Below are positions 7,736 to 23,820 of a stretch of DNA of 64,000 nt, piece after piece (position 1 is the stretch's first letter; the number at the start of each line of letters is the position of its first letter). The notes under the pieces were generated by a model. It did no database searches and was not told where the DNA came from. It saw only the letters and a list, made by a program, of their open reading frames with translations. This DNA is from Pseudomonas sp. 21. GTDB lineage: Bacteria > Pseudomonadota > Gammaproteobacteria > Pseudomonadales > Pseudomonadaceae. Made by a program: the position numbers and the translations under genes. The stretch is from assembly GCF_000955805.1 (NCBI RefSeq), contig NZ_JYOA01000003.1:25540-89539 (forward strand), given 5' to 3'.

Positions 7736-9118
7736 TCAAGCCGTGCGCCGCGGGCGTTGCTCGGCGGCCTGCGCCGGAACTGGCAGGCGGTGCGAGTCGC
7801 CGCGGCCCATGGGGAAGTACTCGAAGCCGTAACGGGCCACGCGCTCGGGGTCGAACAGGTTGCGCCCGTCGAAGATCACCGGGGCTTTCAGGCGGCTGGC
7901 CAGCAGCTCGAAATCGGGGGCTTTGAACTGTCGCCATTCGGTGCAGATCACCAGCGCGTCCGAGCCGCCGAGGGTGGCTTCCGGGGTGCCCATCAGGGTC
8001 AGGCGCTCATCGTGTCCGTAGAGTCGCTGCGCTTCGGGCATGGCTTCGGGGTCGAAGGCGCGGACCTTGGCGCCGGCTTCCCACAGGGCTTCCATCAGGG
8101 TGCGGCTGGGAGCGTCGCGCATGTCGTCGGTGTTGGGCTTGAACGACAGGCCCCAGAGCGCGAAGGTGCGTCCCTTGAGCTTGCCGCCGTAGTAGCGGCG
8201 GATGCGCTCGAACAGCTTGCTCTTCTGCCGCTGGTTCACCGCTTCCACGGCGCGCAGCAGGTCGCTGGAGCAGTGGGCTTCCTCGGCACTCTGGATCAGG
8301 GCCTGGACGTCCTTGGGGAAGCACGAGCCGCCGTAGCCGCAGCCGGGGTAGATGAAGTGGTAGCCGATGCGCGGGTCGGCGCCCATGCCCTGGCGCACCG
8401 CCTCGATGTCGGCGCCCAGGTGTTCGGCTAGCTCGGCGATCTGGTTGATGAAGCTGATCTTGGTGGCGAGCATGCAGTTGGCGGCGTACTTGGTCAGTTC
8501 CGCGCTGCGCAGGTTCATGGTCAGGATGCGGTCGTGGTTGCGGTTGAACGGCTCGTAGATCTCGCGCATCACGTCCAGCACCTCGGCGCTTTCGCAGCCG
8601 ATGACGATGCGGTCGGGTTTGCGGCAGTCGGCCAGCGCCGAGCCTTCCTTGAGGAACTCGGGGTTGGAAACGATCTCGAAGTCCAGGCTGCGGCCTTCTT
8701 CGGCGAGCACCGCCTGAATCCTGGCCTTCACGCGATCGCCAGTGCCCACCGGCACGGTGGATTTCTCGACGATGATCACCGGCTGGGTGCGGTTGCGGGC
8801 GATGCCTTCGGCCACAGCCAGCACAGCGCGCAGGTCGGCCGAGCCATCGGGCAACGGCGGGGTGCCGACGGCGATGAACTGCACCCGGCCATGGGCGGCG
8901 GCCTCGGCGACGTCGCTGGTGAAGCGCAGGCGTCCGGCTTCCAGGTTATCCTTCACCAGCTCGGCGAGGCCCGGCTCGAAGATGCTGATCTGGCCGCGCT
9001 TGAGCTTGGCGATCTTGTCCTCGTCGATGTCCATGCACAGGACGTCATGACCCACTTCGGCCATGACCGCGGCCTGCACCAGGCCCACATAACCGATTCC
9101 GAATACGCTGATTTTCAT
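7736..9118 (-). CDS. ugd: UDP-glucose 6-dehydrogenase
   Basis: A 460-residue NAD-dependent UDP-glucose dehydrogenase making UDP-glucuronate, the first precursor of 4-amino-4-deoxy-L-arabinose. It has the N-terminal Rossmann motif GIGYVGLVQA, the substrate loop FEPGLAELV, and the catalytic-Cys motif GCGYGGSCFPKD (Cys266). The C-terminal UDP-binding domain is complete. It lies 40 bases after arnF on the same strand, so it is the last gene of the arn transcription unit and supplies the ArnA decarboxylase domain with its substrate. Confidence 0.96.
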   Translation of the reverse strand: MKISVFGIGYVGLVQAAVMAEVGHDVLCMDIDEDKIAKLKRGQISIFEPGLAELVKDNLEAGRLRFTSDVAEAAAHGRVQFIAVGTPPLPDGSADLRAVLAVAEGIARNRTQPVIIVEKSTVPVGTGDRVKARIQAVLAEEGRSLDFEIVSNPEFLKEGSALADCRKPDRIVIGCESAEVLDVMREIYEPFNRNHDRILTMNLRSAELTKYAANCMLATKISFINQIAELAEHLGADIEAVRQGMGADPRIGYHFIYPGCGYGGSCFPKDVQALIQSAEEAHCSSDLLRAVEAVNQRQKSKLFERIRRYYGGKLKGRTFALWGLSFKPNTDDMRDAPSRTLMEALWEAGAKVRAFDPEAMPEAQRLYGHDERLTLMGTPEATLGGSDALVICTEWRQFKAPDFELLASRLKAPVIFDGRNLFDPERVARYGFEYFPMGRGDSHRLPVPAQAAEQRPRRTA

Positions 9119-16900: not shown

Positions 16901-18970
16901 ATGCGTTATTCGTCGCTTGTGGACAGGATGGTCGGACCCGGCGTTGCCGCCTGGGATATTCACTACGCCGCCATCGCCGCCCAACGCGCCGGCCGCGACG
17001 TGATAGTGCTCAGCGTCGGCGACCCCGATTTCGCAACCCCGGACTTCATCACCGATGCCGCCGTTTCCGCGTTGCGCGACGGCGACACCCATTACAGTGA
17101 TGTAGCCGGCAAACCCGCGCTGCGCCAGGCGATCGCGGCATTGCATGAGCGACGTTTCGGCCAAAAGACAGGGGCCGAAAACGTCATCGTCGTCGCCGGC
17201 GCTCAAAACGGCCTGTTTGCCGCCGCGATGTGCCTGCTGGAGAAGGGCGACGAGGTCATCACCTTCGACCCGGTCTACGTCACCTACGAAGCCACGCTGA
17301 AAGCCACCGGCGCCGTGCTGGTCGGCGTACCGACCCGCCCGGAAAACGGCTTCCGCCCACTGGCCGCCGATATCGCCGCAGCGATCACCCCGCGCACCAA
17401 GGCGATCTTCCTCGCCAACCCGAGCAACCCCACCGGCGTCGTGCTGGACCGCGACGAGCTGTTGGCCATTGCCGCGCTGGCCGAGGCTCGCGACCTCTGG
17501 GTGGTGGTCGACGAGGTCTACGAAGGCCTGACCTTCGAGCGCGAACACCAGAGCTTCGCTGCCCTGCCGGGCATGGCCGAGCGCACCCTGAGCATCGGCA
17601 GCCTGTCGAAATCCCATGCCATGACCGGCTGGCGTGCCGGCTGGATAGTCGCCAACCCGACCCTGGTCGGGCACCTGGAAAACCTCGCGCTGAACATGTT
17701 CTACGGCCTGCCGGGCTTCGTGCAGGAAGCCGCCCTGGCGGCGGTGGAACGTCACGACGAGGTCGTCACGGCGATGCGCGAGATCTACCGCCGCCGCCGC
17801 GACCTGGTGGTGGCCGCGCTGAGCGATTGCCCGCGGGTGAAGGTCCTGTCCCCCGAAGCCGGCATGTTCGTCATGGTCGACGTGCGCGACAGCGGTCTCA
17901 GCTCGCTGGATTTCTCCTGGCAACTGTTCCACGCCACCGGCGTTTCGGTGCTCGACGCGGCGGCCTTCGGCCCGCAGGCGGAGGGCTTCGTGCGGTTGTC
18001 CTTCGGGTTGAGCGACGAGAGCATGGCGGAAGCCTGTGCGCGGATCATCCGCTTCGTCGAATCGCTTCCCGCACGTGCCGAATCAACTGTAGGAGCGAGG
18101 GGGGCGCCTCAGCCATTGCTCGCGAACGCTCCTGATGCTTCTGCGGCGGTGGCTGGTTCGCGAGCAAGCTCGCTCCTACAGAAAGCAGAGCAGCCCGCGA
18201 CCAAACCAGTGATCGAAGTGCGCGATATCCACAAGCGCTTCGGCGACTTCGAGGTGCTCAAGGGCGTATCGCTGTCGGCGCGCGAGGGCGAGGTGATCTC
18301 GCTGATCGGCGCCAGTGGCTCGGGCAAGAGCACCCTGCTGCGCTGCATCAACATGCTGGAGATTCCCAACCAGGGCTCGGTCACCGTCAACGGCGAGACC
18401 ATCCGTCTGAGCCAGAACCGCCACGGTGAGCCGATGGTCGCCGACCAGAAGCAGCTCACGCGCATCCGCTCGCAACTGGGCATGGTGTTCCAGAGCTTCA
18501 ACCTGTGGCCGCACCGCACTGTGCTGGAGAACCTGATCGAGGCGCCGACCTTTGTCCTCCACGAGAGCAAGGCCGAGGCCCGCGAGCGCGCCGAGGCGCT
18601 GCTGGAGCGTGTCGGCCTGGCGGAGAAGCGCCACGAGTACCCGGCCTTCCTTTCCGGTGGCCAGCAGCAGCGCGTGGCCATCGCCCGTGCGCTGGCCGTG
18701 CGGCCGAAAGTGATGCTGTTCGACGAGCCGACCTCGGCGCTGGACCCGGAGCTGGTGGGCGAAGTGCTGAAGGTGATCCGCTCGCTGGCGGAGGAGGGGC
18801 GGACCATGATCCTGGTTACCCACGAGATGGCATTCGCCCGCGACGTTTCCAGCCATGTGGCGTTCCTCCACAAAGGTTTGATCGAGGAGGAGGGCACCGC
18901 CGAGGAGGTGTTCTTGCGGCCGCGCAGCGAGCGCTGCCGGCAGTTCGTCAACGCGCACCAGAATCGCTGA
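16901..18970 (+). CDS. AruH-like aminotransferase fused to amino-acid ABC transporter ATPase
   Basis: One open frame of 689 codons. Residues 1 to about 395 are a fold-type I PLP aminotransferase closely resembling arginine-pyruvate transaminase AruH (N terminus MRYSSLVDRM, AAWDIHY, PLP lysine K237 in SLSKSHAMTGWRAGW). Residues about 437-689 are a complete ABC ATPase of the AotP/HisP type with Walker A GASGSGKST, signature LSGGQQQR and Walker [13 protein letters not shown]. The about 40-residue linker is encoded by a degenerate REP pair (18088-18180) lying in frame. A GTG at 18209 could start a separate 253-residue ATPase, a normal length, but has no clear ribosome site. The genes that follow supply the rest of the transporter, so the likely role is basic amino-acid import coupled to transamination. 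Substrate is inferred. Confidence 0.85.
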   Translation: MRYSSLVDRMVGPGVAAWDIHYAAIAAQRAGRDVIVLSVGDPDFATPDFITDAAVSALRDGDTHYSDVAGKPALRQAIAALHERRFGQKTGAENVIVVAGAQNGLFAAAMCLLEKGDEVITFDPVYVTYEATLKATGAVLVGVPTRPENGFRPLAADIAAAITPRTKAIFLANPSNPTGVVLDRDELLAIAALAEARDLWVVVDEVYEGLTFEREHQSFAALPGMAERTLSIGSLSKSHAMTGWRAGWIVANPTLVGHLENLALNMFYGLPGFVQEAALAAVERHDEVVTAMREIYRRRRDLVVAALSDCPRVKVLSPEAGMFVMVDVRDSGLSSLDFSWQLFHATGVSVLDAAAFGPQAEGFVRLSFGLSDESMAEACARIIRFVESLPARAESTVGARGAPQPLLANAPDASAAVAGSRASSLLQKAEQPATKPVIEVRDIHKRFGDFEVLKGVSLSAREGEVISLIGASGSGKSTLLRCINMLEIPNQGSVTVNGETIRLSQNRHGEPMVADQKQLTRIRSQLGMVFQSFNLWPHRTVLENLIEAPTFVLHESKAEARERAEALLERVGLAEKRHEYPAFLSGGQQQRVAIARALAVRPKVMLFDEPTSALDPELVGEVLKVIRSLAEEGRTMILVTHEMAFARDVSSHVAFLHKGLIEEEGTAEEVFLRPRSERCRQFVNAHQNR
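18088..18180. repeat. REP pair inside a coding frame, first arm interrupted
   Basis: The right arm (GGTTCGCGAGCAAGCTCGC, ending in CTCCTACA at 18180) is canonical. The left arm starts TGTAGGAGCGAG at 18088 and resumes GCTCGCGAAC at 18117, with about 17 extra bases in place of the central CTT. The element is translated as the linker of the aminotransferase-ABC gene, for example GSRASSLLQ from the right arm, without creating a stop codon. Confidence 0.85.
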
Positions 18971-19039
18971 CCGATGCCGCGCTGTCGGCGCATCGATGAG
19001 CGTGACCCAACACTAAGTAAAACAATGCAGGGGATCACG

Positions 19040-19825
19040 ATGAATAAGAAAGGTCTGTGCAATCTGATGGTGGGTGCGGCGATGCTGGTGGCCGGCGTGG
19101 CGAGCGCCCAGGCCGAGACGATCCGCTTCGCCCTGGCCGCCGAGCCCTATCCACCGTTCTCGCAGAAGCAGCCCGACGGCAGCTGGGTCGGCTTCGAGCC
19201 GGATCTGATCCACAAGGTCTGCGCCGAGATGAAGGCTACCTGCGAGATCGACGAGGTGGCCTGGGACGGCATCATCCCGGCACTGCTGGCGAAGAAGATC
19301 GACGTGATCTTCAACTCCCTGTCGATCACCGATGAGCGCGAGAAGCAGATTGCTTTCAGCCGCCCCTACTACGACACCCCGGTGGCCGTCGCCGCGCCCC
19401 AGGCGGTGGACGTGCAGATCAGCCCCGAGGGCCTGAAGGGCAAGACCATCGGCGTGCAGATCTCCACCGTCAGCTCCAACTACCTCAAGCAGTACTACGA
19501 GAAGATCGCCGACGTGCGCTACTACGACACCCAGGACTCGGTGAACGCCGACCTGGTGGCCGGGCGCATCGACCTGATGATGGCCGACGGTATTGCCGTG
19601 GCGTCCTTCGTCAAGTCGCCGGACGCCCAGGCCGCCGGCATCGTCAACAAGGGCGAGGTGAAGTACGACCCGCTGTTCGGCCGTGGCGTCGGCGCCGGCC
19701 TGCGCAAGGGCGACACCGAACTGAAGGCGAAGATGGACGAGGCCATCGGCAAGCTGCTCGCCAGCGACGACTACAAGGCGCTGTCGGAGAAGTACTTCGG
19801 CATGAGCGTCGCGCCCAAGCAGTAA
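19040..19825 (+). CDS. Amino-acid ABC transporter periplasmic binding protein (SBP_bac_3)
   Basis: A 261-residue periplasmic binding protein. The start at 19040 (MNKKGLCNLMVG) gives a standard signal peptide ending at ASAQA before ETIRFALAAEPYPPF. An upstream frame exists but lacks a ribosome site. The mature part has the family 3 signature region GFEPDLIHKVCAEMKATCEIDEVAWDG split over residues about 51-77 and the ligand-domain motif DVIFNSLSITDEREKQ. It resembles HisJ/ArgT/AotJ, binders of basic amino acids. A strong stem-loop follows, before the permease gene. Confidence 0.9.
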   Translation: MNKKGLCNLMVGAAMLVAGVASAQAETIRFALAAEPYPPFSQKQPDGSWVGFEPDLIHKVCAEMKATCEIDEVAWDGIIPALLAKKIDVIFNSLSITDEREKQIAFSRPYYDTPVAVAAPQAVDVQISPEGLKGKTIGVQISTVSSNYLKQYYEKIADVRYYDTQDSVNADLVAGRIDLMMADGIAVASFVKSPDAQAAGIVNKGEVKYDPLFGRGVGAGLRKGDTELKAKMDEAIGKLLASDDYKALSEKYFGMSVAPKQ

Positions 19826-19842
19826 TCCCGGCGTGAGCTGGA

Positions 19843-19865
19843 CCCGTGCCCGCGGCGGGCACGGG
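19843..19865 (+). other. Stem-loop between binding protein and permease genes
   Basis: A perfect 10-base inverted repeat (CCCGTGCCCG and CGGGCACGGG) with a 3-base loop, 18 bases after the binding-protein stop and without a T tract. Such hairpins typically protect the upstream message from 3' decay, so that the binding protein is made in excess over the membrane subunits. That role is inferred. Confidence 0.75.
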
Positions 19866-19898
19866 GATGACCCTGAGCCTCCCATCCTGGAGACGGCC

Positions 19899-20609
19899 AT
19901 GCAAAGCATCTTCGACCTGATCGGCTTCGGCCCCACCGGCTGGGGCCCGGCCCTGCTCAAGGGGCTGCTGGTCACCCTGCAGATTTCCGTCGGCGCCTTC
20001 CTCGTCGGCCTGCTGATCGGCCTGGCCGCGGCCAGCGCCAAGATCGGCGGGCCGCGACCGCTGGCGATGCTCGCGCGCGGCTACACCACGCTGTGCCGGG
20101 CGGTGCCGGAGTTGCTGCTGATCCTGCTGCTGTTCTACGTTGGTTCCATGGGCCTGAACCAGTTCTTCGAGTGGCTCGGCTACGGCCAGGTGAAGCTCAA
20201 CGGCATGATGGTGGCCATCGCCGTGCTCGGCCTGGTGCAGGGCGCCTACGCCTCGGAAATCTTTCGGGGCGCCATCCAGTCGATTCCCTACGGCCAGATC
20301 GAGGCGGCGCGCGCCTACGGCATGCACGGCTTCGGCCTGTTCCGCCGGGTGACCCTGCCGATGATGGCGCCCAACGCGCTGGCCGGCATGGCCAACCTGT
20401 GGGTCAACCTGATCAAGGACAGCGCGCTGATCAGCGTGGTCGGCACCAACGAGCTGCTCTACACGGCCAAGCAGGCCGCCGGTTCGACCCGTCACTACCT
20501 GACCTTCTACCTCACCGCGGCGGCGCTGTACTACGTGCTCACCGTGCTTTCCAACCTGTTCGCGGGCTACCTGGAGCGACGTTTCCGTCGCTGGATTCCG
20601 GCGGTCTGA
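19899..20609 (+). CDS. Amino-acid ABC transporter permease (HisQ/AotQ type)
   Basis: A 236-residue inner-membrane permease with five or so transmembrane helices. The start at 19899 (MQSIFDLIGFG) is preceded by a CTGGAGAC ribosome site. The EAA loop that contacts the ATPase reads GQIEAARAYGMHGFGLFRRV around residues 130-149. HisM/HisQ-type family features (RAVPELLLILLLFY) are evident. It pairs with the next permease to form the heterodimeric channel. Confidence 0.92.
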   Translation: MQSIFDLIGFGPTGWGPALLKGLLVTLQISVGAFLVGLLIGLAAASAKIGGPRPLAMLARGYTTLCRAVPELLLILLLFYVGSMGLNQFFEWLGYGQVKLNGMMVAIAVLGLVQGAYASEIFRGAIQSIPYGQIEAARAYGMHGFGLFRRVTLPMMAPNALAGMANLWVNLIKDSALISVVGTNELLYTAKQAAGSTRHYLTFYLTAAALYYVLTVLSNLFAGYLERRFRRWIPAV

Positions 20610-20622
20610 ACGAGGCGCGGCG

Positions 20623-21372
20623 ATGAACGAACACTGGCTATTCGTCTACGGTGCCCTGCTGCTCAAGGGCCTGGGCACCACCCTGGTGATCCTGCTGATT
20701 TCCGCCATTCTCGGCTTCGCCCTGGCGCTGGTTGTGGCGCTGGCGCGGATGTCGCGCAACTTCCTCATCTCGCGCCTGGCGCTGGCGTACACCAGTCTGA
20801 TTCGCGGCACCCCGCTGCTGGTGCAGATCTACATCTTCTACTACGGCCTGGGCAGCCTCTTCGCGCAGTTCCCGCTAATCCGCGGCAGCTTCCTCTGGCC
20901 CTACCTGCGCGATGGCTTCTGGTACATCGTGATCGCGCTGATCCTCTCGGTCGGCGCCTACGTCGGCGAGGTAGTGCGCGGCGGCCTGAAGGCGGTGCCG
21001 CGCGGCGAGCTGGAGGCGGCTTCAGCGTTCGGCATGAACCGCACGCTGGTGCTCTACCGCGTGTGGCTGCCGCGGGCGATCCGCCTGCTGTTGCCGACCC
21101 TGGCGGGGGAAAGCGTGATGCTGCTCAAGTCCACCGCGCTGGCTTCCACCATCGCCGTGGTCGACCTGCTGGGCGCCGCCAACGTGGTGCGCGCGCAGAC
21201 CTTCCAGGTTTACCAGCCGCTGCTGCTGGTGGCGGCGATCTACATCTGCCTGACCTTCATCATCGAGGCGCTGTTCGCCATGCTGGAGCGCGCCACGCCG
21301 GTTCGCCGCGAGGCGCAGAAGACAACGCAGCGGAGCTGGCTGGGCAAGCGCAGGCCACGCACCGCCGTGTGA
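20623..21372 (+). CDS. Amino-acid ABC transporter permease (HisM/AotM type)
   Basis: A 249-residue inner-membrane permease. The motif SLIRGTPLLVQIYIFYYGLG and the EAA loop RGELEAASAFGMNRTLVLYR are typical of the HisM family. The C-terminal tail is basic. It starts 13 bases after the preceding permease stop, and its end nearly abuts the convergent TetR gene (8 bases). Confidence 0.92.
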   Translation: MNEHWLFVYGALLLKGLGTTLVILLISAILGFALALVVALARMSRNFLISRLALAYTSLIRGTPLLVQIYIFYYGLGSLFAQFPLIRGSFLWPYLRDGFWYIVIALILSVGAYVGEVVRGGLKAVPRGELEAASAFGMNRTLVLYRVWLPRAIRLLLPTLAGESVMLLKSTALASTIAVVDLLGAANVVRAQTFQVYQPLLLVAAIYICLTFIIEALFAMLERATPVRREAQKTTQRSWLGKRRPRTAV

Positions 21373-21380
21373 ACGATTGA

Positions 21381-22037
21381 TCAGGCATAGGCGCCGCGGC
21401 GCAGCCCTTCCACCCAGCAGCGGCTGAGCTCGAGGCCGTCGGCGGCGCTGAAGGTCGAGGGATTCAGGCACCACTCCAGCCACAGTCCGTCGAGCATGGC
21501 GGAGAGGCCGATGGCGGCGAGACGCGGGCGCGCCACGCTGAAACCCTCGGCGCCGGCGAGTTCGCTGATGAGCTTTTCCAGGATGGCGAGGTAGCTGTGG
21601 TAGCCGCGCTCGTGCGCCTCGTTCACCGGCGGCGAGTGACGGATCAGGCTCCAGAACACGACCCAGGGGCTGAGCAGGTCGGGGTCCAGCACCTGGGGCG
21701 AGAAGGAGCCGGTGAGGAAGGCCTCCATGCGCACGGCCGGGTCGTTGCCGACCGCGTCGACCTGCCGGTAGAGCGCCTGGGTCACCTCGCTGGCGAGGGT
21801 TTCGTAGGCCTGCGCGACCAGGGCGTCGATGCTGCCGAAATGGTGATTCACCAGGCCCACGGCCACTCCGGCTTCCTTGGCGATGCGACGCACCGAGATG
21901 CCCGCGTGGCCGTCGGCGACCAGGCACTTGAGGCAGGCGCGCACGAGGTGGTCGCGGCGCTCCTCGGGTGTGGCGCGCTGGGCTTTCTGGCGGGGGATAT
22001 CCAAGGGCGGGCGTCCTGTGTTGCGTGGTGCCGGCAA
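21381..22037 (-). CDS. TetR/AcrR-family regulator (BetI-like)
   Basis: A 218-residue regulator. The N-terminal helix-turn-helix (about residues 25-75) reads ISVRRIAKEAGVAVGLVNHHF, very like BetI. The C-terminal ligand domain is less conserved. It is divergent from the AstE/AotO-like gene (98-base gap) and convergent with the transporter genes, so it probably controls the amino-acid uptake and deacylase genes around it. Effector unknown. Confidence 0.88.
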   Translation of the reverse strand: MPAPRNTGRPPLDIPRQKAQRATPEERRDHLVRACLKCLVADGHAGISVRRIAKEAGVAVGLVNHHFGSIDALVAQAYETLASEVTQALYRQVDAVGNDPAVRMEAFLTGSFSPQVLDPDLLSPWVVFWSLIRHSPPVNEAHERGYHSYLAILEKLISELAGAEGFSVARPRLAAIGLSAMLDGLWLEWCLNPSTFSAADGLELSRCWVEGLRRGAYA

Positions 22038-22134
22038 GCGGCGAACGGTTTCGATACTAGGAGGCGACGAGAAAGATTTCCACGGGCCTTTTGGATCGAG
22101 AGCAGACAGAGACCAGACGGAGGAGAGAGGACAG

Positions 22135-23148
22135 ATGATCGAGGACGTATCCTTTGCCGTACCCGGTGATTCCGGCGCTGAGCTGCGCGTGCGCGCCTGG
22201 CGTATCGACGGCGGCAGACCGGGGCCGAAAGTGCACCTGCAGGCTGGCGTGCACGCCGATGAAATCGCCGGGATGCTGGTGCTTCACGAGCTGCTGCCGC
22301 GTCTGCGCGATGCCGCCGAACGGGGTGTGCTCAATGGCAGTGTGACCGTCGTGCCGCAGGCCAATCCCTTCGGTGTCGGGCAGTTCCGCCAGGGACGGAT
22401 TCTCGGTCGAAACCACGAGGCGACCTCGCGCAATTTCAACCGTGGCTTCATCGCCTCGGCCGCCGCCAGCGGCACCCTGGACAACCTCGCGCAGTGGCAG
22501 AAGCGCCTGGCCGAACTGGCCGCGCCGGCGGACATCGTGCTCGACCTGCACACCGACGACGAGGCGCTGCAGTACGTCTACATCCACGAGTGCTTCTGGC
22601 CGGCCGCGCAGGACCTGGCCGCCGCGCTGCGCGCGGAGCTGGCGATCCTCTGGGAAGGCGATGGCGATGGGGCGTTCGAGGAGGTGGTGATCGCCCCGTG
22701 GCTGGCCGAACAGCGCTTCGAGGGGCGGCTGGTGGCAACCGTCGAACTGCGTGGCCAGGGCGACGTCAGCGACGCGCTGGCGCAGCAGGATGCCGATGGC
22801 CTCTACCGCTTCCTCGGTGCCCGTGGCGTGGTCACTGACGCCGGGCCGTTGCCGGAGTGGAAGGGCGTCGCCACACCGATGGGCTTCATGGAAACCGTGT
22901 TCGCCCCGGCGGCTGGTGTGCTGGTTTTCGAGCGTGAGTTGGGCGATTTCGTCGAGGCTGGGGAGCGATTCGGTCGCATCGTTTCGCGGCCTGGAGATGC
23001 CAGCAGCGAACACATCCTGCGCGCCCCGCAGAGCGGCCTGTTCGCCACCCGCTACCGCGACCGGCTGATTCCCCAGGGCGCCATCGCGGGCAAGTTCACC
23101 GGTAGTGCACCCTCCAGCACCTGGACGTCCGGCGCGCTTGATCCGTAA
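22135..23148 (+). CDS. Succinylglutamate desuccinylase/aspartoacylase-family protein (AotO-like)
   Basis: A 337-residue zinc-carboxypeptidase-fold protein of the AstE/AspA superfamily. The start ATG at 22135 follows a strong AGGAGAGAGG site; upstream frame sequence is dismissed. Zinc-site motifs are visible: QAGVHADEIAG near residue 39-49, with His and Glu ligands, then DLHTDDEAL near residue 137-145. The C-terminal part looks like a lipoyl-type beta barrel (AAGVLVFERELGDFVEAGE). A homologue, AotO, is encoded inside the aotJQMOP arginine-ornithine operon of P. aeruginosa, so a role in N-acylated or basic amino-acid use is plausible but unproven. Confidence 0.85.
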   Translation: MIEDVSFAVPGDSGAELRVRAWRIDGGRPGPKVHLQAGVHADEIAGMLVLHELLPRLRDAAERGVLNGSVTVVPQANPFGVGQFRQGRILGRNHEATSRNFNRGFIASAAASGTLDNLAQWQKRLAELAAPADIVLDLHTDDEALQYVYIHECFWPAAQDLAAALRAELAILWEGDGDGAFEEVVIAPWLAEQRFEGRLVATVELRGQGDVSDALAQQDADGLYRFLGARGVVTDAGPLPEWKGVATPMGFMETVFAPAAGVLVFERELGDFVEAGERFGRIVSRPGDASSEHILRAPQSGLFATRYRDRLIPQGAIAGKFTGSAPSSTWTSGALDP

Positions 23149-23241: not shown

Positions 23242-23685
23242 TCACAGCCAGACGGCGTTCCAGAATGGGTAGTCCCGAAGCGATCTGACCAAGCCGGCGC
23301 GCAGAGGATTGGCGACCAGGTAGCGGGCTGCTGCCCTCAGGTCTTCGTCACGGCGTAGGGCGTGGTCATGGAAACCGGACTGCCAGACTTTGCCCGTGCG
23401 CTTGAGTGCCTTGTTGAGCGAGATCCCTGTGAGTGATTTCAGCTGTTGCATGAAGCCGCTCAGTGAGTTGCTGTTGAGTTGGACCAGGCAATGCAGATGA
23501 TCCGGCATCAGCACCCAAGCCAGAACGTCTGTCGATGCGAGTTGGTGAAGCTCCCAGGCGACAGCGCTGGCGCCTGTCCATTGCTGGAAGAAAGGCTGGC
23601 GCTGGTGAGTGATAGTTGTGACGAAATAGATTTGCCCTTGAATCGAGCAACGTCCATTTCGCAAATCCTTGCCATGAAATCCCAT
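23242..23685 (-). CDS. REP-associated tyrosine transposase (RAYT)
   Basis: A 147-residue Y1-transposase-like endonuclease (IS200/IS605-related, also called TnpA-REP). It carries the HUH metal motif MPDHLHCLVQL near residue 58-68 and the C-terminal catalytic-Tyr region RAAARYLVANPLRAGLVR. The start MGFHGKDLRN at 23685 is chosen because the upstream in-frame extension to 23811 is translated REP DNA ([16 protein letters not shown]). Length fits the family. RAYTs are domesticated enzymes thought to spread REP/REPIN sequences by cutting at the REP hairpin. REP pairs on both sides make this a self-contained unit. Confidence 0.93.
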   Translation of the reverse strand: MGFHGKDLRNGRCSIQGQIYFVTTITHQRQPFFQQWTGASAVAWELHQLASTDVLAWVLMPDHLHCLVQLNSNSLSGFMQQLKSLTGISLNKALKRTGKVWQSGFHDHALRRDEDLRAAARYLVANPLRAGLVRSLRDYPFWNAVWL

Positions 23686-23740
23686 CGCCAGTTTCCCCTG
23701 GAAGCCAGCGCTAAAGGTTGCAGAGGAGGTCAGGCCTGAC

Positions 23741-23802
23741 TGTAGGAGCGAGCTTGCTCGCGAACCTGCGGGGTCCGGTTCGCGAGCAAGCTCGCTCCTA
23801 CA
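23741..23802. repeat. REP pair flanking the RAYT gene (upstream side)
   Basis: Canonical inverted pair TGTAGGAGCGAGCTTGCTC ... CGAGCAAGCTCGCTCCTACA with a short 13-base loop, 56 bases upstream of the RAYT start. Confidence 0.9.
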
Positions 23803-23820
23803 AATGGCCAAACGGCAAAA

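Follow-up and report, generated by a model that had tools for sequence, protein, structure and literature searches.

Polar amino acid importers of the HisQMP and AotJQMP type consist of an ATPase, two permeases and a binding protein of the lysine/arginine/ornithine (LAO) type, and AruH is an arginine:pyruvate transaminase. The locus analysed here, in a window of 64,000 nucleotides of Pseudomonas sp. 21 (NCBI RefSeq assembly GCF_000955805.1, contig NZ_JYOA01000003.1, positions 25,540 to 89,539 of the forward strand), contains the same set of importer parts, but its ATPase is the C-terminal half of a fusion with a transaminase; the latter differs from AruH in being joined to an ATPase and in standing in a gene row in which no 5-guanidino-2-oxopentanoate decarboxylase was seen. 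Importer genes and a PLP aminotransferase likewise share one row on Serratia and Paracoccus plasmids, although there the ATPase comes first, the genes are separate and identity is about 40%.

At the joint of this fusion, two GTAG-type REP elements in inverted orientation are translated as part of the frame. Translated REPs have already been described: the portions of Di Nocera et al. 2013 (PMC3733652) drawn on here report GTAG-tagged in-frame palindromes or dimers inside genes, more than half of the intragenic inserts encoding 20–30 residues, and note that recB carries different REPs at about the same position in two species of Xanthomonas. Unlike the cases in those portions, the pair considered here occupies the linker between two fused domains and can be traced across a genus, with repeated changes of type. 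Rickettsia palindromic elements, cited in the same paper, are likewise in-frame palindromes inside protein genes, but they differ from the linker REP in sequence family and host. The pair also resembles the REPINs of Bertels and Rainey 2011 (PMC3116915), inverted REP doublets with a spacer that occur in hundreds of copies alongside a RAYT gene; in the part of that paper considered here the doublets are mainly extragenic (in SBW25, only 14 of 1,067 copies of the commonest REP 16-mers overlap genes), whereas the linker pair is intragenic.

From comparisons of sequence, we propose with reasonable confidence that the locus is an old enzyme–importer fusion that would make one bifunctional protein, and that the REP pair entered its linker later and has since had its arms exchanged. 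A search of titles and abstract beginnings, with subscription papers outside its scope, returned no published description of the fusion, of an AruH link or of a strain with the gene.

Two complete domains in one reading frame

The fused gene runs from ATG to TGA without an internal stop, and frame reading together with Pfam bore out the original prediction of two complete domains in one uninterrupted frame (Table 1). With a PF00155 score of 239 bits against a gathering score of 19.7, the N-terminal half belongs to the class I/II aminotransferases; its residues N173, D204, Y207, K237 and R365 are identical throughout 31 sequences, and K237 is, by its motif, presumably the PLP lysine. In the ATPase half, no variation was found in the same number of sequences at G470–T478, Q531, L584–Q588, V604–E609 and H641, which we take to be the Walker A motif (470–478), the Q-loop, the LSGGQ signature (584–588), the Walker B motif (604–609) and the H-loop, respectively. 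Across 21 genus rows, dN/dS was 0.16 for the transaminase, 0.11 for the ATPase and 0.59 for the linker; judged from the sequences, purifying selection keeps both halves and their motifs. A structure prediction for the fused protein reached middling quality (mean pLDDT 72.9, pTM 0.55). It shows two folded parts, with the lowest pLDDT of the model (<50) at residues 393–433 and other stretches below 50 that include 1–25 and 237–243. No solved chain spanning both halves was found among the best 60 of the 732 matched.

Table 1 Features of the fused gene and its neighbourhood, in window coordinates.
Feature	Position	Strand	Evidence
Fused gene, 689 codons: AruH-like PLP aminotransferase, linker and ABC ATPase	16901..18970	+	Open frame; full-length frames of relatives
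Aminotransferase class I/II domain, residues 33–382	16997..18046	+	PF00155 Aminotran_1_2, E 1e-70; invariant N173, D204, Y207, K237, R365
Inter-domain linker, residues 390–436, probably disordered	18068..18208	+	Low pLDDT at 393–433; raised dN/dS
Left REP arm, long form; 17 bases (18100–18116) instead of CT, net +15	18089..18127	+	Pattern matches 16 genome places, its own included
Right REP arm, exact type A GTAGGAGCGAGCTTGCTCGCGA, 22 bases	18158..18179	-	Exact match
ABC ATPase half, residues 437–689	18209..18967	+	PF00005 (ABC_tran, residues 453–612), E 8e-37; HisP chain 1b0u, E 9e-96
Periplasmic binding protein, lysine/arginine/ornithine type	19040..19825	+	PF00497; TIGR01096 222 bits, under cut-off 256; PDB LAO-binding chains, E about 4e-42; queries started one codon early, at 19037
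HisQ-type permease	19833..20609	+	PF00528; top NCBIfam HisQ, under cut-off
HisM-type permease	20623..21372	+	PF00528; top NCBIfam HisM, under cut-off
TetR/BetI-type regulator adjoining the row	21381..22037	-	PF13977, PF00440; synteny
AstE/AspA-type deacylase adjoining the row	22135..23148	+	PF24827, E 2e-22; match at 77 of 79 fused named loci; query started 9 codons early, at 22108, the start at 22135 being our reading
RAYT transposase	23242..23811	-	NF047646, 143 bits against cut-off 80

Occurrence of the fusion in Pseudomonas and beyond

A full-length, stop-free fusion is present in 20 of the 24 other genomes of the genus, at 80–96% identity, while in the remaining four the threshold used picks up only a transaminase that is more distant. 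At family level, 42 of 298 genomes (our own included), from three of 19 genera, carry the full-length fusion, and five more have a transaminase of the same kind without it. We call this distribution narrow, one Agrobacterium rubi plasmid apart, because only four of 398 genomes in a phylum-wide sample matched at the same threshold and all four belong to this genus. Named genomes were scanned as well, and of the 80 best-matching loci among 178, 79 were fused (664–689 residues), the sole exception being L118, a transaminase alone; this list was ranked by match to the fusion and is consequently biased towards full-length genes, and 11 of the 79 (L039–L049) come from genomes already counted among the 24. 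The A. rubi plasmid, the only carrier among the best 15 plasmid records listed, encodes the fusion in one piece (63% identity, annotated as a single CDS); after it come genes for a binding protein, two permeases and a DMT transporter, and then a TetR gene. Because the same fused frame recurs in the genus, the family and the A. rubi plasmid, an assembly error in one strain is excluded. On these sequences the fusion is old and is shared among many species of Pseudomonas and with one plasmid of Agrobacterium; the anticipated coupling of a transaminase to a transporter ATPase is conserved.

Strains with the same two genes unfused, which the original prediction had suggested looking for, did not appear among the best 80 of 178 loci, and the six nearest stand-alone transaminases (L118–L123) have no ATPase match in the 7–13 kb of sequence covered around each. 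These transaminases, from some related Pseudomonas, are 65–67% identical to the fused half, and a gene of their type is a possible unfused source of it.

Gene neighbourhood and candidate substrate

The fused gene stands first, ahead of the genes for a binding protein and two permeases, and by gene order this combination of an SBP_bac_3 protein with two BPD_transp_1 permeases is that of an importer. The binding protein was matched at all 79 fused named loci and both permeases at 77, the other two loci ending there; a TetR match accompanies the row in most of them. In P. jessenii (L056, 10402–11406) and A. rubi (L038, 13317–14219), an EamA/DMT transporter lies between the last permease and the TetR gene; it is absent from the window.

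Among the best 60 of the 732 solved chains matched, the ATPase half is nearest to those of HisP and ArtP type, although its score against the HisP equivalog NF007908 (359 bits against a cut-off of 466) places it outside HisP proper, and the nearest relatives of the binding protein are LAO-binding proteins. The transaminase half is labelled AruH-like because it is 53% identical to a paralogue in the same genome (G000:C40) that adjoins a 5-guanidino-2-oxopentanoate decarboxylase; an arginine:pyruvate transaminase activity is only putative, and none of the best 25 of the 288 NCBIfam families matched reached its cut-off. The AstE/AspA-type deacylase beside the row hints at an N-acylated substrate. 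We infer from this gene content that the substrate taken up and deaminated would be a basic or N-acylated amino acid.

A translated REP pair in the linker

As predicted for positions 18088–18180, the REP pair at the joint reads through without a stop. It has the GTAG-tagged palindromes, the inverted doublet and the many genomic copies of GTAG REPs and REPINs: the type A arm occurs in 563 exact copies in the genome (282 forward and 281 reverse), and a hairpin is predicted at the joint from 18087 to 18181 (−58.5 kcal/mol, z −5.5). It departs from REPs in position, since it sits within a conserved coding frame and not between genes. The window contains 15 matches to the type A arm with at most three mismatches, against none in 100 shuffles, and these together with the long left arm form eight pairs, six of them between frames that are gene-like as judged from codon-position GC, one over the 5′ end of the RAYT frame and one in the linker, which is the only pair deep within a gene-like frame. 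The RAYT gene lies about 5 kb from the linker REP and is flanked on both sides by type A REP pairs; its predicted 5′ end runs through one of these, and the start is probably misassigned. A RAYT-like match was present downstream at nine of the 79 fused named loci.

Four REP types (A–D), plus decayed ones, were assigned by eye in the linkers. Left and right arms agree perfectly in five of the 14 linkers scored (two of type A, three of type C) and differ at 1–9 of 23 positions in the other nine, most in type B; this comparison left out the four long-form linkers, as well as L027, whose right arm is missing. A careful DNA tree built from the gene minus its linker requires six changes between types A, B and C over 15 rows, and a single clade was rejected both for the four long-form carriers (p-AU 8e-48) and for all six A carriers (p-AU 2e-54). 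As far as the gene sequences go, the REP type in nitroreducens/citronellolis linkers changes repeatedly and not along the gene tree. Nor is the linker type simply the commonest REP of its genome: in counts that covered types A, B and C, with D left out, A exceeds B and C in nine of the 10 genomes with B or C linkers. Elsewhere in the genomes, type C arms form runs in which successive arms, all in the same orientation, are about 170 bases apart (G001:C35:271786–272324 and similar rows), as if tandemly amplified.

The long-form left arm is no local accident, because its pattern recurs at 16 places in its own genome (the linker included) and in 21 of 25 genus genomes. G001 and G002, whose own linkers are of type D, also contain the linker's exact 37-mer at other sites, and donors within genomes are therefore possible. 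Long forms among the matches listed are mostly 36 bases, and all four long-form linkers have the frame-keeping 37-base form. The idea that the 17-base interruption of the left arm is what keeps the frame open fails on L018 and L019, which are open with an uninterrupted arm; with the long form a genome-wide REP type, the interruption can be ruled out as a requirement for the open frame.

Discussion

That the REP pair sits exactly at the joint and is translated through invites the original prediction that a mobile palindrome replaced the transaminase stop codon and so created the fusion, and GTAG REPs often provide a stop codon or stand at the ends of genes according to the portions of PMC3733652 drawn on above. 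Both GTAG tags were found within two mismatches in 18 of 21 distinct genus linkers (L047 has the left tag only, and L023 and the P. panipatensis linker L049 lack the pair), but in the 69 fused genes outside the genus (68 Pseudomonas loci and A. rubi) no linker has a REP tag within one mismatch or both tags within two. Linkers with a REP are 30–47 residues long and those without, including these 69, are 22–29. Fusions do not, in other words, occur only with a REP, and because REP-free ones are found in P. panipatensis, in the resinovorans and fluorescens groups and in A. rubi, the fusion is the older of the two. On a quick 40-row protein tree without the linker, presence and absence of the REP require two changes, which may reflect two separate gains or a single gain followed by loss in P. 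panipatensis, and under either history the sequences place the arrival of the REP after the fusion. The P. panipatensis genome (G011, L028/L049) has no exact copy of REP types A–C, and neither have G012 and G017, relatives having hundreds. We consider it extremely improbable that the REP made the fusion, a role that is ruled out unless every outgroup fusion came from a REP-bearing ancestor and then lost its REP. A separate ATPase, made beside the fusion by internal initiation, is also improbable, if less so. Across 91 rows (one genome twice), the ATPase core is preceded by ATG in 68 rows and by GTG in 11, possibly a former start codon, but the codon is GTC in 10, GTA in one and AAG in A. rubi. 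Within the genus, 10 of 21 distinct rows have GTC or GTA there and hence lack a start codon. Shine–Dalgarno energies before the ATPase average −2.2 kcal/mol over 90 distinct rows, against −2.6 at 9,000 random coding sites and −5.9 at gene starts, and −5 kcal/mol is reached in 12 of the 90 rows (13.3%) against 14.5% of random coding sites. Initiation at GTG 18209, suggested earlier, appears unlikely, the Shine–Dalgarno energy there being 0 kcal/mol, with no match. A few rows outside the genus have a good Shine–Dalgarno-like stretch before the ATG (for example L050, −7.1 kcal/mol), so a second product is possible there.

The turnover of REP types admits a stronger competitor. Homologous recombination of short stretches between species, and not copying from genomic REPs, might have scattered the types, since L009 and L016, though far apart on the gene tree, share an identical spacer between the arms. 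Against it, G001 and G002 have linkers of another type but contain, at other sites, long-form arms identical to the one here, and we judge its chances to fall somewhat short of even. Genomic REP exchange and between-species recombination are both possible. Gene conversion as an idea for REPs appears in the title of a work cited by PMC3116915. Selection of the message hairpin as a translational pause, during which the transaminase folds before the ATPase is made, could explain why the hairpin is so stable and why the arms of types A, C and D are largely complementary. However, palindromic structure is expected of any REP, the arms of L023 and L027 are decayed, some type B arms are mismatched, and neither P. 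panipatensis nor the genes outside the genus, that of A. rubi among them, have the pair, which makes a selected pause very unlikely.

We return to the old fusion with a later REP as the preferred reading. The gene would encode a single bifunctional polypeptide in which an AruH-like aminotransferase is connected by a flexible linker to the nucleotide-binding subunit of an ABC importer for polar amino acids. Since each transporter would hold two such proteins, a transaminase dimer would sit at the cytoplasmic mouth of the importer, where a basic, perhaps N-acylated, amino acid may be deaminated on entry. The REP pair would have entered the linker in the nitroreducens/citronellolis group, where the sequence may matter little if the frame stays open, and its arms may since have been exchanged with other REPs. 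The single protein, the benefit of tethering, the substrate and the manner of REP exchange are what we infer. A more specific version, which we regard as possible but rather doubtful, is that same-genome REPs overwrite both arms of the linker at frame-keeping lengths only, and that the transaminase is a metabolic trap that pulls uptake at the importer exit; if so, the linker would record REP conversion and the fused enzyme would pull uptake by destroying the substrate.

The locus corrects a tempting story, in that a mobile element at a joint need not be the maker of that joint. In the linker, REP turnover can be traced from species to species at one site within a reading frame, which bears on the old question of REP conversion. 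With an enzyme of amino-acid catabolism covalently joined to an importer ATPase, and this link conserved, the coupling of uptake to metabolism becomes directly testable.
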